Source of the DNA: Gemmatimonadaceae bacterium
Lineage (GTDB): Bacteria; Gemmatimonadota; Gemmatimonadetes; Gemmatimonadales; Gemmatimonadaceae
Reading direction: 5' to 3'
Length of the DNA stretch: 54,137 nt
NCBI GenBank assembly: GCA_014379355.1
Contig: JACMLX010000025.1
Span: 1 to 54,137 of the forward strand
Positions 13,048 to 20,013 of the stretch are shown here, one piece after another. Position 1 is the stretch's first letter. Each line of letters opens with the position of its first letter. Under the pieces are notes generated by a model, which searched no databases, was not told the origin of the DNA, and saw only the letters and a list, made by a program, of their open reading frames with translations. The translations under genes and the position numbers were made by a program.

Positions 13048-13982
13048 CGACACCGGGACGCGAAGGACAGACGTTCGCCGGACCGTCGGCGTGGGCGCGC
13101 TGGGCCAGCTTCGTGAAACTGCCGCACACCGTGTTCGCGCTGCCCTTCGCGCTCACGGGCGTCGTGCTGGCGAGTCGCGAGATGCTTCCCACCATCGGGC
13201 AGGTCGGCTGGGTCGTGCTGGCCTTCACGGCCGCGCGTTTCGCTGCGATGGCATTCAACCGCATCGTCGATCGTGACGTGGATGCGAAGAATCCGCGCAC
13301 GAAGATGCGCGAGATCCCGAGCGGCGCCCTGCTGCTGGGTCAGGCGAAGGCGAGTGTGGTGCTGGCCGGCATCACCTTCATGTTCGCGAGCTGGATGCTC
13401 AATCCGCTGTGCGGCATGTTGTCACCGGTCGCGCTGGCGTGGGTGCTATTCTACAGCTACTGCAAGCGGTTCACGCGCTGGAGCCATCTCGTGCTCGGAC
13501 TGGGGCTCGGCATCGCGCCAGTCGGTGGCTATCTGGCCGTGACGGGTGCATGGAGCTCACCGGTGTGGATGCTCCCCGTGCTTGCGATGGCCGTCATGAC
13601 GTGGTCCGGCGGCTTCGACATCCTCTACGCGTTGCAGGACGTCGCCTTCGACCGGGCGAACGGATTGTTCTCGCTGCCGGCCGCGCTTGGCGCGCCGCGC
13701 GCGCTGAACGTCGCGAGGGTGCTGCATGTGGGCACCGTGCTGCTGCTCGCGCTGGTCGGTTGGGCCACCGGAGGCGGTGTACTGTACGCTGTCGGGGTAG
13801 CGGCCGTGGCCGTGCTGCTGCTGTATGAACACTCGCTCGTGAAGCCGGACGATCTCTCCAAACTCGATGCGGCGTTCTTCACGATGAACGGTGTGATCAG
13901 CATCACGTTCTTCACGTTCGTGCTGCTCGAACGACTGCTGCACCTGCCGTCGATCGCCGACTTGCTGACACGCGCCGCATGA
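13044..13982 (+). CDS. UbiA-family prenyltransferase (MqnP/UbiA-like)
   Basis: 312 residues from the ATG that overlaps the UbiD stop; the frame continues upstream but only as a shadow of ubiD. It is an integral membrane protein of about eight or nine helices. The first Asp-rich motif is NRIVDRDVDAKNPRT (about residue 72) and the second is YALQDVAFDR (about residue 195); these bind Mg-prenyl diphosphate. The family attaches a polyprenyl tail to an aromatic acid. The SFVKLPHTVFALPFALTG start is typical of the subgroup linked to menaquinone clusters. The prenyl acceptor is inferred from context. Confidence 0.93.
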   Translation: MTTPGREGQTFAGPSAWARWASFVKLPHTVFALPFALTGVVLASREMLPTIGQVGWVVLAFTAARFAAMAFNRIVDRDVDAKNPRTKMREIPSGALLLGQAKASVVLAGITFMFASWMLNPLCGMLSPVALAWVLFYSYCKRFTRWSHLVLGLGLGIAPVGGYLAVTGAWSSPVWMLPVLAMAVMTWSGGFDILYALQDVAFDRANGLFSLPAALGAPRALNVARVLHVGTVLLLALVGWATGGGVLYAVGVAAVAVLLLYEHSLVKPDDLSKLDAAFFTMNGVISITFFTFVLLERLLHLPSIADLLTRAA

Positions 13983-14581
13983 GCGCGCCGCTGCCGATCG
14001 TGATGGCGATCACCGGCGCATCGGGGGCGCCGTACGCGGTGCGCCTCCTCAACGCGCTGGCGTCCGCCCGGCAGCCGGTGTGGTTGATCGTGAGCGCGCA
14101 CGGATGGCGATTGCTGCAGACGGAATCGGGCATCCACGACCTGCATGGCTTTCGCGATCACGTCGGTGAGGATGCGTGGGACGCGAACGTCACCGTGTTC
14201 GACGACAACGATCGTGGTGCCACGCCGGCCAGTGGCTCGGCGAAGGTGCGGGGCATGGTGATCGTGCCGTGCAGCATGGGCACCATCGCGTCGATTGCAG
14301 CGGGTACGAGTCGATCGCTGGTGGAACGCGCGGCGGATGTGTCGCTCAAGGAACGTCGTCCGCTGATCGTGGTGCCTCGCGAAACGCCCTTCTCGCGCAT
14401 ACACCTCGAGAACATGTTGCGCCTGACCGACGCGGGTGCGGTGGTGCTGCCGGCGGCGCCAGGCTTCTATCACCAGCCGGAACGCATCGATCAGCTGGTG
14501 GATTTCGTCGTGCAGCGCATTGTCGATCAGCTGCACGTGGAGATCGACATCGCGCCGCGCTGGGGCGACGTCAGCGAGTGA
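13979..14581 (+). CDS. ubiX: UbiX-type flavin prenyltransferase
   Basis: 200 residues, starting in the 4-base overlap with the UbiA gene. AITGASGAPYAVRLL at the N-terminus binds FMN. CSMGTIASIAAGTS and ERRPLIVVPRETPFSRIH are hallmark blocks, and a Tyr in PGFYHQPERI completes the dimethylallyl-phosphate site. UbiX prenylates FMN to give the cofactor used by UbiD, whose homologue is two genes upstream, so the pair is functionally matched. A diverged, frame-broken copy of part of this gene lies at about 17416-17540. Confidence 0.95.
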   Translation: MSAPLPIVMAITGASGAPYAVRLLNALASARQPVWLIVSAHGWRLLQTESGIHDLHGFRDHVGEDAWDANVTVFDDNDRGATPASGSAKVRGMVIVPCSMGTIASIAAGTSRSLVERAADVSLKERRPLIVVPRETPFSRIHLENMLRLTDAGAVVLPAAPGFYHQPERIDQLVDFVVQRIVDQLHVEIDIAPRWGDVSE

Positions 14582-14583
14582 GT

Positions 14584-15054
14584 GTGCGATACGTGATCGG
14601 GTTGGTGTCCGACACACACGGCATGGTGCGCGCAAGCCTGTTCGATGCACTGGCGGGCGTGGATCGGATCCTGCACGCGGGTGATGTCGGCCCTGACGAT
14701 GTGCTGGACGAACTCGGCGCGATCGCACCGGTGAGCGCCGTCTGCGGCAACACCGACGTGCCGGGTAATCCGCGATTGGCGAAGGACCTCGTGCTCGACA
14801 TCGGCGGTGTCAGCATACACGTGAGTCACGGCCACGAACTCGGGAGCCCGACGCCCGCGAAACTGCTCGCGACCTATCCGCAGCGCGTGCTTGTCTATGG
14901 ACACACCCACCGGCAGCGGATCGACGAGGTCGAAGGGCGACTGGTGATCAATCCCGGTGCCGCCGGTGCACGTCGGTTCGATCTCGTGCCGAGTGTCGCG
15001 CGGCTGACGATCGAGAACGGTGTGCCGTCGGGGCAGCTGATCCCCCTGCACTAA
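14584..15054 (+). CDS. YfcE/MJ0936-type metallophosphodiesterase
   Basis: 156 residues from the GTG at 14584, directly after the ubiX stop. Calcineurin-like metal motifs are complete and in order: SDTHG, HAGDVG, CGNTD, SHGHE and YGHTHRQR, with the family's C-terminal INPGAAGARR. These small cytosolic enzymes hydrolyse phosphodiesters in vitro; natural substrates are poorly known. It may simply ride on the quinone operon. Its 3' part reappears in degenerate form at about 17541-17625. No terminator is obvious after the stop. Confidence 0.92.
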   Translation: MRYVIGLVSDTHGMVRASLFDALAGVDRILHAGDVGPDDVLDELGAIAPVSAVCGNTDVPGNPRLAKDLVLDIGGVSIHVSHGHELGSPTPAKLLATYPQRVLVYGHTHRQRIDEVEGRLVINPGAAGARRFDLVPSVARLTIENGVPSGQLIPLH

Positions 15055-15195
15055 GCCCGCCGCGCGCATCAGACGCGTCGAGGTGCGGGCTCCAGCAATG
15101 ACTGTGCGCGGTTGCGCGCGTGTTATCGCGCCACCAGCCCGGCCACGCTGCGGAAGAACTGCGGAAAGGGATACGCAGCGATCTTCGTGAGCGTG

Positions 15196-15315
15196 TTATT
15201 GGCCGCCGGTGGCGAATGTGCTCGGCGCCGCGAGCGCACCATTCGACGCGCGCGGAAAAGCCACAATCTCGTTCCCCTCTGTCGCGTTCGTCATCACATA
15301 TACCTTACCGGCCAT
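15196..15315 (-). pseudogene. Truncated lactonase-family beta-propeller stub
   Basis: A 39-codon minus-strand frame begins with ATG at 15315 and reads GKVYVMTNATEGNEIVAFPR, then ASNGAL and STFATGGQ before a TAA. This is the pattern of the first propeller blade of 6-phosphogluconolactonase-like (lactonase) proteins, which normally run to about 350 residues. The rest of the gene is absent, so it is a remnant. The surrounding gene-free stretch 15055-15449 contains nothing else I can identify. A second minus-strand frame at 15123-15200 ending FPQFFRSVAGLVAR may be another gene end but was not recognised. Confidence 0.6.
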
Positions 15316-15449
15316 GCGAAATGGGTGGCGCGCGCGAACGCGGCAAGCACGCGAACCGCGTATCGGGTGGTTATGGTATGTTGCTGCTCATATGAGGCAA
15401 GCAGTGTCGGTGGCGATCGGGGTGGTGTGACTGGGTCTCATCCGGTGTG

Positions 15450-17102
15450 TCAGCGCCGGCCGGAGTCGTTCGACGTGTCGAGGCTCTTCAGAAACTCGAC
15501 CACGTCTGACCGACGCGTCGCATCAGTGAGATAGAACGGATGCGGCGCGTTCGCGCCGCGCTTTGGGTCGAGCAGATCGGCCAGGCTGGCCACTGAATTG
15601 TCGTGCAGAAACACCGGCTTTCTCGCTAGATCCAGCAGCAGGGGCATTGTGGTGCCCCGAATCTCTCCTCGACCGCTCGCATTCACGACCGCCATCTTGT
15701 CGTCGAAAATTGATTCGGCGGTATTGAGCACGTCATTGAGCGGCGGCATGCGCTGTGCAAGCACGACCGGGTTGTCACCGGGGAAAATGCGTTTCATCGC
15801 CACGATGAACGTCGGGACCGGCTTGCCTTGATCGACGTTGTGGCAGTCAGTGCATCCTGCCGTGCGGAAAATCTGCCTGCCGCGTGCGTACACTTGCGCG
15901 TCGGCCGGCGCTCCAACCGGAGCGATGAGATGCGCCAGATACGCATTCAGCGCCAGCAACGTGGCTTCGTCGACGCGTAGACCAATTGGCGCGTCCTCGC
16001 TTCCGGGCTTCGCATGCGGTGCGGCCTTCACGAAGGGGTAGCCGGTGACACCAGTGGCGGCCAGCACCTTCACGTAGTCATCTGCGATTTCGTCGCCCGC
16101 AGCGCCGCCGAGCGTATGAAGAAACGCGCGACCACCTGGAGTGGTGAGTGCGGTCTGATCGAAGAGTGTCGTATAGACGAGATTGCTGAAATTGTCGAGC
16201 CGCGCGATCAGGCCTTCGCTGCCATATGGCGCTGCCAGATCCTGACGGAACAGCGGCGTGTTGTGCATCGGGTTGCCGTTGCCGTCGAACGTGTCGTCGA
16301 ACATGCCCTTCGGATAAAACGCCGGATTCGACAGATACGCGTCCACTTCAGCTTCGGTGGACGTTTCGGTGAGCCCCGTAGGCGCGCGGCCGAGCGTGTT
16401 TCCCTTGTTGGCGTTGAGCGAGAGCTGGAGCGTCGGATACAAGGCCCGCGAGTTTGCGGCCGTCGCGAAGATTCGACCGACGTCGAGGTTGTGTGACGCG
16501 AGGCCATCGAGTCGTGTGCCGATGCTGCCTCCGCCAGCGACGCGGAAGGCAGAGCCGTCCGTGGCGGTATGACAGAACGCGCAACTGGCGCCCACCTTGT
16601 CGCCCTTCATAACATCCATGACTCCGTCGCCGCTCGCATCCTTGACGGGCATTCCGATCACGGCGTTGGCGTTGATGAGCATGGCAAGCATCGCCGGGTC
16701 GTTCAGCATGGCCGATGTGCGGCCCGTCGGATCAATACGAAGCTCGGCAGTGAGTGCGCGTCGTGTGTCCGCGCTGAGCGCGTCCACGTCGATGCTGATG
16801 CCCAGCTCCAGCGCCTGCATCGGCGTGACGCGTTGTGCCATCATGCCTGCGGGCAGTCGCACCGCATCGGTCCAGAATCTTTCGTTGCCGAATGTTTCGA
16901 AGCGAAACGCCTGCTTGCCGGCCTCGGCGTCACCGTCACGCCGCGGCGTGACAACGCCCTGATTCGGCGGCCCTTCGGCGCCTGATGCAGTGCTGCCGGG
17001 AGGTACCGCCGCATTCCCTCCAGCACAGCCTGCAATGGACGACAACAGAAGCAACGCCACTGGTAAGTGGCGTTGCACAATTGAGTGACGAATTTCTTGC
17101 AT
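15450..17102 (-). CDS. Dihaem c-type cytochrome lipoprotein
   Basis: 550 residues. The N-terminus is a lipoprotein signal (LLLLSSIAGC, lipobox Cys at about residue 26) followed by a Pro/Gly/Ala-rich linker. Two haem-c sites are present: CAFCH at about residue 172 and CTDCH at about residue 417. The spacing and the overall shape resemble dihaem cytochromes of the peroxidase/MauG-related group or DUF-type oxidoreductases, but I cannot place it exactly. It should be exported and membrane-anchored, acting in periplasmic electron transfer. It stands alone on the minus strand between two patches of gene debris, which suggests acquisition or local rearrangement. Confidence 0.8.
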   Translation of the reverse strand: MQEIRHSIVQRHLPVALLLLSSIAGCAGGNAAVPPGSTASGAEGPPNQGVVTPRRDGDAEAGKQAFRFETFGNERFWTDAVRLPAGMMAQRVTPMQALELGISIDVDALSADTRRALTAELRIDPTGRTSAMLNDPAMLAMLINANAVIGMPVKDASGDGVMDVMKGDKVGASCAFCHTATDGSAFRVAGGGSIGTRLDGLASHNLDVGRIFATAANSRALYPTLQLSLNANKGNTLGRAPTGLTETSTEAEVDAYLSNPAFYPKGMFDDTFDGNGNPMHNTPLFRQDLAAPYGSEGLIARLDNFSNLVYTTLFDQTALTTPGGRAFLHTLGGAAGDEIADDYVKVLAATGVTGYPFVKAAPHAKPGSEDAPIGLRVDEATLLALNAYLAHLIAPVGAPADAQVYARGRQIFRTAGCTDCHNVDQGKPVPTFIVAMKRIFPGDNPVVLAQRMPPLNDVLNTAESIFDDKMAVVNASGRGEIRGTTMPLLLDLARKPVFLHDNSVASLADLLDPKRGANAPHPFYLTDATRRSDVVEFLKSLDTSNDSGRR

Positions 17103-17324
17103 GAGTGTTGCCTGTCGAGAATTTATGACGCACGCCTGGGGCAGCTTGCTTCGCGGTCGGCCCTGGCCCCAGCTGATGCATTGGCGATGTTCGTTGAACA
17201 GCGAATCCAGTCCGCATTTGTCATACCGGTCTGCGGAGCTCAGCAGTCATTAAGGGCGCAGATGCACCATTCCACCGCAACGGTGTCGTTCGCGCAACGC
17301 GTCGAGTTTGCTGGTGCTGTGCTG

Positions 17325-17412
17325 CGCCTCCCTTGAACAACCGCGCACGTCGGGACCGATTTGCCAGCGCCTCGTCCGTGATCGACGTCGACTTCGTCAG
17401 GTCCTGTTCGAC
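17325..17412 (-). pseudogene. Fragment of a cardiolipin synthase 3' end
   Basis: Read on the minus strand this gives VEQDLTKSTSITDEALANRS then RRARLFKGGA. The C-terminus of the intact cardiolipin synthase (18589-18705) reads FEQDLTKSRAITAETIAHRS then IGARLFEGGA. DNA identity is obvious but imperfect. Only the last 30 or so codons are present. It abuts a ubiX fragment on the opposite strand. Confidence 0.65.
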
Positions 17413-17415
17413 GCC

Positions 17416-17540
17416 GATGTGTCGCTCGAGAAGGGCCGTCCGGTGATCGTGGTGCCGCGCGAAACACCGCTCTCGCGCATCCATTCGAAATCGTGCTGCG
17501 CCTGGCCGTCGCGGGTGCGATGGTGCTGCCGGCCAATCCC
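17416..17540 (+). pseudogene. Frame-broken fragment of ubiX
   Basis: Translates as DVSLEKGRPVIVVPRETPLS then RIH; after a one-base deletion the frame continues as LRLAVAGAMVLPA. The intact UbiX at 14334-14460 has DVSLKERRPLIVVPRETPFS then RIH and LRLTDAGAVVLPA. Nothing before or after this segment of ubiX is present. It runs directly into a piece of the yfcE-like gene at a shared Ala-x-Pro-Gly coding spot, skipping the ubiX end and most of yfcE. Confidence 0.7.
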
Positions 17541-17625
17541 GGTGCCGCCGGTGCGCGACGCTTTGACCTTGTACCAAGTGTCGCGCGGCTGACGATCGAG
17601 ACCGGTGTGCCGTGTGGAGCCGATC
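17541..17625 (+). pseudogene. Fragment of the YfcE-like gene 3' end
   Basis: Encodes NPGAAGARRFDLVPSVARLT then IETGVPCG, nearly identical to the C-terminus of the intact phosphodiesterase (14947-15035: NPGAAGARRFDLVPSVARLT then IENGVPSG). The original stop codon region is not conserved. The roughly 220 bases of 17103-17324 upstream of these fragments hold no recognisable gene; they include the leader of the cytochrome gene on the minus strand. Confidence 0.7.
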
Positions 17626-17655
17626 ACGTTGCAGTGAACCGTCGTGATGGGGCGC

Positions 17656-18477
17656 TCACCTGCGTGCCACGATCGCCTGCGGTCGGAACGTGCCGCCGCT
17701 GAGCGCGCCCATCACCCGTGACTCGAAGCCTCCCGAGATGAAACGAAGCTGACGAAATCCGCGGGAATGGAGGAACGCCTCGTAGGCACCGACTTGAGCA
17801 ATGTCGGCGAGGACCAGCACGCCGTCGGGACGCAGCACGCGAACCATCTCCTCGAGCGCCTTTGTTCGATCAGCCTCGAGCTCGATGTTGTGTATCACCC
17901 AATGCGACGTCACGACATCCATGCACGCGTCTCCAAACTTCAGCGCGCGTGCATCGCCGTGTTCGATGGTGACGCGATCGTCCACACCTTCGATCTGCGC
18001 GTTCCTTTTCGTCGCGATGGGTGTGTTTCCCGACTGGTCCGTCTCGCGCCAGAGGTCGATCCCGACAGCGGTACCCGTCGTCAATCGCTGCGCCGCACCG
18101 ATGAGCATCAGGCCGCGACCGCACCCCACATCGAGTACGGTTTCGTCGCCCCGCCATGGACGCATCTGCGCCGCCAGATCAAGCAATCGGTCGCGCGTGC
18201 GACGCTTGCCGACCTTGCTGGACCACGTCATGTAGCAGGACATGCCGAGACCGTACAGCGCGCCCACGGCGCCGACCGCGGCGACACCGCGCGCAATGGA
18301 GCTCCAAGGCGATCGAGTCGCGCCTTCCAGAATCATTGCGGCGAAGGCAACGGTTGCCGAAACCCCCGCCAGGAAAAGCATTCCCTTTCGCACGCCCGGG
18401 GCGTCGATCCCGTAGTCGGGATTCCCGCGTCCGAATGCTGCGTTTTCTCGCGGCGCTCTGTCTCCGACGTGTGGCAT
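17656..18477 (-). CDS. Membrane-anchored class I SAM-dependent methyltransferase
   Basis: 273 residues from ATG at 18477; an ATG at 18558 would add 27 residues. The N-terminus has NPDYGIDAPGVRK and two hydrophobic segments (about residues 32-53 and 62-83), as in a common family of methyltransferases tethered to the inner membrane. The Rossmann SAM loop is VLDVGCGRGLML, followed by GIDLW, HGDARALKFGD, VTSHWVIHNI and LRPDGVLVLADI. Substrate unknown. It lies 111 bases after the start-to-stop end of cls on the same strand and might be co-transcribed with it. Confidence 0.85.
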   Translation of the reverse strand: MPHVGDRAPRENAAFGRGNPDYGIDAPGVRKGMLFLAGVSATVAFAAMILEGATRSPWSSIARGVAAVGAVGALYGLGMSCYMTWSSKVGKRRTRDRLLDLAAQMRPWRGDETVLDVGCGRGLMLIGAAQRLTTGTAVGIDLWRETDQSGNTPIATKRNAQIEGVDDRVTIEHGDARALKFGDACMDVVTSHWVIHNIELEADRTKALEEMVRVLRPDGVLVLADIAQVGAYEAFLHSRGFRQLRFISGGFESRVMGALSGGTFRPQAIVARR

Positions 18478-18588
18478 GCTTTGCTCAGGTGTGCCGAACC
18501 AGTGTCCGCGTCGTTCGCGGCGACTCGCGGAATCGACGCTCGCGACGGATATCATCACAGCTGCAACGGACGGAAAGGCGATGTCCCC

Positions 18589-20013
18589 TCAGAGCATCGG
18601 CGAAAACAATCGCGCCCCACCTTCGAACAGCCGCGCACCGATAGAGCGATGCGCGATCGTCTCCGCCGTGATGGCCCTGGACTTCGTCAGATCCTGCTCG
18701 AACATTCTCGCCAGTTCATCGGCGAACCCGCTGCCGTAGCAGATCGCCAGCACCTCGAAATTCAGACGCAGGCTGCGGTTGTCCACGTTCGCCGTGCCGA
18801 CGATCGCCGCATCACGATCCACCACCATCGTCTTGGAGTGCAGCGCTGGCGGGCCGTAGGCATGAATCAGGACGCCAGCGGACAGGAATTCCGGGAAGTA
18901 ACTGCGTGAGGCCGCATCCACGAACGGCTGATCACTCGTTCCGGGCACCAGCACACGCACATCCACGCCGCGCAACGCGGCCGCGATCAAGGCTTCCTGC
19001 AGCGAGTCATCGGGGACGAAGTATGGCGTCGAGATCCAGACGCGCTCGCGCGCCGTGGCGATGGCAGTGAAGAACACCGCATGGATCGACTGTGGGTGTG
19101 CGTCGGGACCCGATGCGCACACCTGCACCAGCTTGTCGCCCGTGCCCGTCAGCGGTGGCAGGAACTCGATGCCATCGAGCACGGTCCCGGTGGCGTATTG
19201 CCAGTCCTCGAGAAACGCGAGTGCGAGGGGCGCCACCGCATCACCGACCAGCTTCACCTGCGTGTCACGCCAGCCCTGCGCCACACCGACCACCGACTCG
19301 TCGTGACAATCGTCGATGTTCATGCCACCGGTGAAGCCGGTCGTGCCATCGCAGATCACCATCTTGCGATGGGTGCGGAAATTGACGAACCCGGGCCGCA
19401 TGCGCGGGCCGAAGCGCGCGATCTCGACGCCCGCATCGCGCAGCGGTTGCAGATACGCGCCCAGTCGAGAGGTTCCGAGACCATCGAGCAGCAGCCGTAC
19501 CTGCACTCCGGCCTTCGCGCGCTCGATGAGTGCTGCACGAATGCGTTTCGCGACGACGCCGTCATTCAGGATGTAGTACTCGAGATGGACGTGATGCGTC
19601 GCCGTCCCGATCGACTCGATGATGGCGTTGTAGGCGTGGCTGCCGAGATCGTAGAGTTGCACCTCAGTGGCGGGCAGCGGTGGCGCCTGCTCCGTGCCAG
19701 CGGCCACGGCGGCGAGTCGGGCACCGGAATTGCCGAGTTCCTGCCCGGTGGAATTTCGATTCGGCGCCGCTCCACCGGCCCTGGCGCGCTTCGCCGTGCG
19801 CGCCATCACACGACGGCGACGCTTGCGACTCAATCGCCGCGGGCCGAGAAAGTAGTAGACCACGAAACCGAGCACCGGCAGATAGGCGAGGCCGATGATC
19901 CACGCCAGCGTCGCCAGCGGCGGCCGGCGCTCGAGCAGGATGTACCCCGACATCGCGACCACCCACACCACTTCGACCGCGATCAGCCACCCCGGCAGAG
20001 CGCGAAAAATCAT
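18589..20013 (-). CDS. cls: Cardiolipin synthase (phospholipase D family)
   Basis: 474 residues. Two N-terminal membrane helices are followed by two phospholipase D domains, each with an HxKxxxxD motif: HRKMVICDGTTGFTG (about residue 212) and HSKTMVVDRDAAIVG (about residue 390). GGMNIDD and NVDNRSLRLNFE are typical of bacterial ClsA. The enzyme condenses two phosphatidylglycerols into cardiolipin and glycerol at the inner membrane. Its ATG overlaps the stop of the UvrC-like gene, so it is the last coupled gene of a purD-mutM-uvrC-like-cls run. A diverged copy of its 3' end occurs at 17325-17412. Confidence 0.94.
   Translation of the reverse strand: MIFRALPGWLIAVEVVWVVAMSGYILLERRPPLATLAWIIGLAYLPVLGFVVYYFLGPRRLSRKRRRRVMARTAKRARAGGAAPNRNSTGQELGNSGARLAAVAAGTEQAPPLPATEVQLYDLGSHAYNAIIESIGTATHHVHLEYYILNDGVVAKRIRAALIERAKAGVQVRLLLDGLGTSRLGAYLQPLRDAGVEIARFGPRMRPGFVNFRTHRKMVICDGTTGFTGGMNIDDCHDESVVGVAQGWRDTQVKLVGDAVAPLALAFLEDWQYATGTVLDGIEFLPPLTGTGDKLVQVCASGPDAHPQSIHAVFFTAIATARERVWISTPYFVPDDSLQEALIAAALRGVDVRVLVPGTSDQPFVDAASRSYFPEFLSAGVLIHAYGPPALHSKTMVVDRDAAIVGTANVDNRSLRLNFEVLAICYGSGFADELARMFEQDLTKSRAITAETIAHRSIGARLFEGGARLFSPML

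Follow-up and report, generated by a model that had tools for sequence, protein, structure and literature searches.

An old patch of ubiX-yfcE-cls debris in a Gemmatimonadaceae genome as the likely remnant of a small tandem duplication

Natural duplications in bacteria are reported to arise, in many cases, without the mediation of sequence identity (PMC11111574), and tandem duplications can be stimulated by transformation (PMC3784515). For mitochondrial genomes, duplication followed by loss is a standard model (PMC5122201). Here we describe a patch of gene debris in a window of 54,137 nucleotides (the whole stretch of DNA that was analysed) from a Gemmatimonadaceae bacterium. The patch resembles bacterial tandem duplication by illegitimate (homology-poor) recombination in its apparent head-to-tail arrangement, in its single new join and in the lack of long homology there. 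Unlike the reported bacterial cases, which are typically recent or under selection, it is old (about 17% diverged), and its unit, which we infer to have been shorter than 1 kb, has been almost wholly deleted. It also resembles the tandem duplication-random loss of animal mitochondrial genomes (PMC5122201; PMC3283314) in that redundant copies were lost and remnants lie in predictable places; unlike that system, the working genes here keep their ancestral order. A limited search found no literature on this locus.

The patch (17325-17637) joins a cls-tail, a ubiX-middle and a yfcE-end piece in that order on the plus strand, and each of the three lies on the same strand as its intact parent gene (Table 1), the parents standing in the order ubiX, yfcE and then cls in the opposite sense. 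When the genome was searched with its own positions 17325-17640, three matches were returned, all on the plus strand: ubiX at 14333-14454 (83%, E 1.4e-28), yfcE at 14949-15050 (83%, E 3.8e-23) and cls at 18620-18701 (74%, E 7e-7), with no further match in this genome beyond these parents. A repeat finder returned the identical three pairs as direct repeats on the same strand, and protein-level matches agreed for ubiX (E 8e-11) and yfcE (E 4e-15). The cls piece, which is the weakest, corresponds to about 29 codons close to the end of the cardiolipin synthase (69% protein identity, no frameshift, E 8e-9); the final ~8 codons of cls have no recognisable counterpart in the patch. Even for this piece the identity to its parent is above chance, the alignment scoring 59, whereas none of 1000 dinucleotide shuffles scored above 34. 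The ubiX piece has lost one base near 17484, which shifts its frame, and the yfcE piece has lost two bases near 17614 and keeps the end of the gene with its stop codon (17635-17637). A sequence-only reading of this DNA had described a mosaic of broken cls, ubiX and yfcE pieces beside their intact copies; the mosaic is real, and the intact genes lie where that reading placed them, with yfcE starting at 14578.

Table 1. Intact genes, remnants, joins and candidate frames at the ubiX-yfcE-cls locus (window coordinates)
Feature	Position	Strand	Evidence or remark
ubiX, intact parent	13979..14581	+	ORF list; Pfam Flavoprotein E 3e-40
yfcE-like phosphoesterase, intact parent	14578..15054	+	Pfam Metallophos_2 E 6e-31
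di-heme cytochrome c-type gene	15450..17102	-	would lie in copy 1 gap; both congeners lack it; patchy in family
chimeric frame candidate	17221-17577	-	118 aa
chimeric frame candidate	17308-17592	+	94 aa
cls tail remnant	17325..17411	-	73-74% DNA identity to 18612-18701; putative right end of duplicate copy 1
join cls-tail/ubiX-middle	17411..17413	.	both parents aligned at join
ubiX middle remnant	17413..17533	+	83% DNA identity to 14333-14454; putative left end of duplicate copy 2
internal deletion point	17533..17534	.	ubiX and yfcE matches adjacent; equivalent of 14455-14948 (about 494 bp) gone
yfcE end remnant	17534..17637	+	83% DNA identity to 14949-15050; end of gene matched to 14949-15054
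class I methyltransferase gene	17656..18558	-	would lie in copy 2 gap; both congeners lack it; patchy in family
cls, cardiolipin synthase, intact parent	18589..20013	-	TIGR04265 376 bits, cut-off 290; synteny

We compared the locus with two congeners (G001 and G002) and with a wider family sample of 179 genomes. In G001, ubiE-ubiD-ubiA-ubiX-yfcE faces cls-uvrC-mutM-purD, the yfcE and cls stop codons have 45 bases between them, and the debris is absent. The sequence-only reading had raised the question of a relative in which cls directly follows yfcE, and G001 is such a relative; we presume its layout to be the starting arrangement before the duplication. Wherever the junction could be seen in the rest of the family, yfcE and uvrC face each other and cls is missing between them. 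Within the sample cls thus adjoins yfcE in this genus only, and the debris must therefore stem from a genome with that layout. No other copy of the mosaic was found in this genome, in the genus or in the 179 family genomes, and a full second yfcE is present in neither of the two congeners compared. The yfcE-cls gap of G002 is occupied by a transporter gene that we call MATE-type on the basis of its sequence rather than of a family search; the gene lies between short 'gcaaaggcgcaaagg'-like repeats (L010:7556-9516) and is an independent insertion, so that insertions have entered this convergent gap on more than one occasion. A search of named genomes for cls returned distant relatives only, mostly Pseudomonadota and Myxococcota, and no congener; the best named matches outside the family sample, in Myxococcota and Pseudomonadota, are about 50% identical. 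Because cls stands beside yfcE only in this genus and outside matches reach only about that level, the gene was probably acquired by this genus. In a genome of another genus (G046, L211:9595-11621), an intact cls (69%) comes directly after the C-terminal part of a uvrC-like gene (78% identical to that of the window), and ubiX and yfcE are absent from the site; this has the look of a transferred segment of uvrC and cls, truncated on the 5' side of uvrC. No UbiX was found in viral contigs.

We consider it very likely that this lineage once underwent a small tandem duplication, now old and decayed, of which the patch is what remains. After the split from the two sampled congeners, a unit would have been duplicated head-to-tail through a join without long homology. 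It would have run from the middle of ubiX, across yfcE and a short gap, to take in the terminal ~113 bases of cls, and with a gap no longer than that of G001 its length would come to about 0.9 kb. A head-to-tail copy of such a unit must read, across its new join, cls tail, ubiX middle, yfcE and then intact cls; the observed order is the predicted one minus the equivalent of 14455-14948, so that one duplication and one deletion explain the patch. The two ends of the unit, right then left, meet at a single novel join, and alignment of both parents there revealed no long homology between them; short matches would be hidden by decay. As the copies differ by 17%, the join is not expected to be an artefact of assembly. 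Copy 1 would have held the whole of ubiX and yfcE and ended in a cls stub, and copy 2 would have held a beheaded ubiX and a complete second yfcE, with the intact cls after it. Decay of the cls stub and of the beheaded ubiX would have begun at the outset; the second yfcE was probably functional for a while, up to the point where a loss of about 494 bp would have brought the yfcE end up against what remained of ubiX. Apart from this, the cytochrome gene would have entered the gap of copy 1 and the methyltransferase gene that of copy 2, and the need for two later insertions, one per gap copy, is a point against the model. None of the genomes compared shows an intermediate stage, which is a further point against it. 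The suggestion that the patch is old debris of a duplication thus stands, in the more specific form of one tandem duplication and one internal deletion; recombination with a related genome, which had been offered beside it, is not needed.

The position of the debris in a tree and the type of change that it has accumulated bear on this reading. In trees built from the ubiX and yfcE columns, with full-length intact rows and on the 225 shared columns alone, the debris and this genome's own copy are sisters (96/90 for the full alignment; the shared columns give 82/77), and the two together fall inside the genus (100/100 and 99/97, respectively), which places the fragments in this lineage. The debris branch (0.13-0.15) is about twofold longer than that of the intact own copy (0.07-0.08). 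The cls piece, which has no tree of its own, is nearest to this genome's gene by identity only (64% vs 53% and 45%). We polarised substitutions by diverged outgroups, and the counts are small, the pieces amounting to about 310 bp in all: the own branch carries 11 synonymous and 3 nonsynonymous changes (3/14, P 0.0003), and on the debris branch 9/11 changes are nonsynonymous in the ubiX piece (neutral expectation 71%, P 0.88) vs 3/10 in the yfcE piece, which is below neutral (P 0.012; Fisher P 0.03 for the two pieces). Coding constraint has been lost in the debris, as seen in the nonsynonymous share of the ubiX piece, its frameshift and the long branch. The neutral-looking changes in ubiX are as expected of a copy truncated at birth, and the constrained-looking changes in yfcE are as if the second copy had worked until its deletion; because the counts are small, we take this contrast as supporting rather than decisive.

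The same data can be read, with a low probability, as an import from an unsampled close sister, in which ubiX-yfcE-cls DNA was taken up, integrated beside the resident copy and then decayed. The identity of 83% to the own copy is only moderate, the differences in the yfcE piece are mostly synonymous, as between two functional orthologues, and in another bacterium tandem duplications can result from transformation (PMC3784515). However, the mostly nonsynonymous changes on the ubiX-piece branch place most of the divergence after the loss of function, homologous import normally replaces rather than adds, and the order of cls before ubiX would require a tandem join anyway.

The genes that flank the debris raise the question of whether it arrived with them. 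Relatives of the cytochrome gene (63-75% identity) occur in a few other genera, and those of the methyltransferase reach about 50% identity at best; linkage of the two was not found elsewhere, the eight loci checked carrying one or the other and never both. We searched for remnants of either gene as a sign that it was older than the duplication, and found none above noise, either of the methyltransferase in gap 1 or of the cytochrome near the debris. The repeat finder detected no repeat pair bounding 15055-18588, and the site shows none of the marks of a mobile element (transposase, integrase, terminal repeats or tRNA target): the two genes in the gaps are the cytochrome and the methyltransferase, and the window holds no tRNA. 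Under the duplication model the two genes lie in different gap copies, and two acquisitions are therefore likely. A single import of the whole block 15055-18588 would account for the contiguity of cytochrome gene, debris and methyltransferase gene and for the absence of all three from G001 and G002, but we regard it as improbable: the debris belongs to the genus, as sister to the own genes, the homologues of the cytochrome and the best one of the methyltransferase are unlinked in the other family genomes that carry them, and the model assigns the two genes to separate gaps. The earlier proposal that the event behind the patch possibly brought in both genes is not supported, on these last two points. 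A second piece of debris in the yfcE-cls gap (15202-15315, minus strand) consists of about 38 codons like the start of a longer protein; it is 53% identical to part of a 391-aa frame in the genome G091 and reads like a beta-propeller lactonase-type protein, but has no Pfam or NCBIfam match.

Three independent short insertions, for example by fragment capture during break repair, are slightly less probable still: the pieces are all short and insertions are tolerated where gene ends converge, as the transporter gene in G002 illustrates, but none of the three is inverted relative to its parent, the ubiX and yfcE pieces stand in their original order, and the patch lies exactly where a tandem copy is expected, so that one event explains it. 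That one of the small open frames across the patch (Table 1) is a young chimeric gene born of the duplication join is hardly credible. The patch shows no sign of a new function.

In bacteria, deletion usually erases the traces of such duplications. The process proposed here is ordinary, and the interest of the locus is the legibility of a reconstructable event. The cytochrome and methyltransferase genes at this site should not be taken for one acquired block. The two halves of one duplicate apparently met different fates, ubiX being dead at birth and yfcE working until it was deleted. The patch would record, on a small scale and with a known place in the tree, how a duplication decayed in a bacterial lineage.
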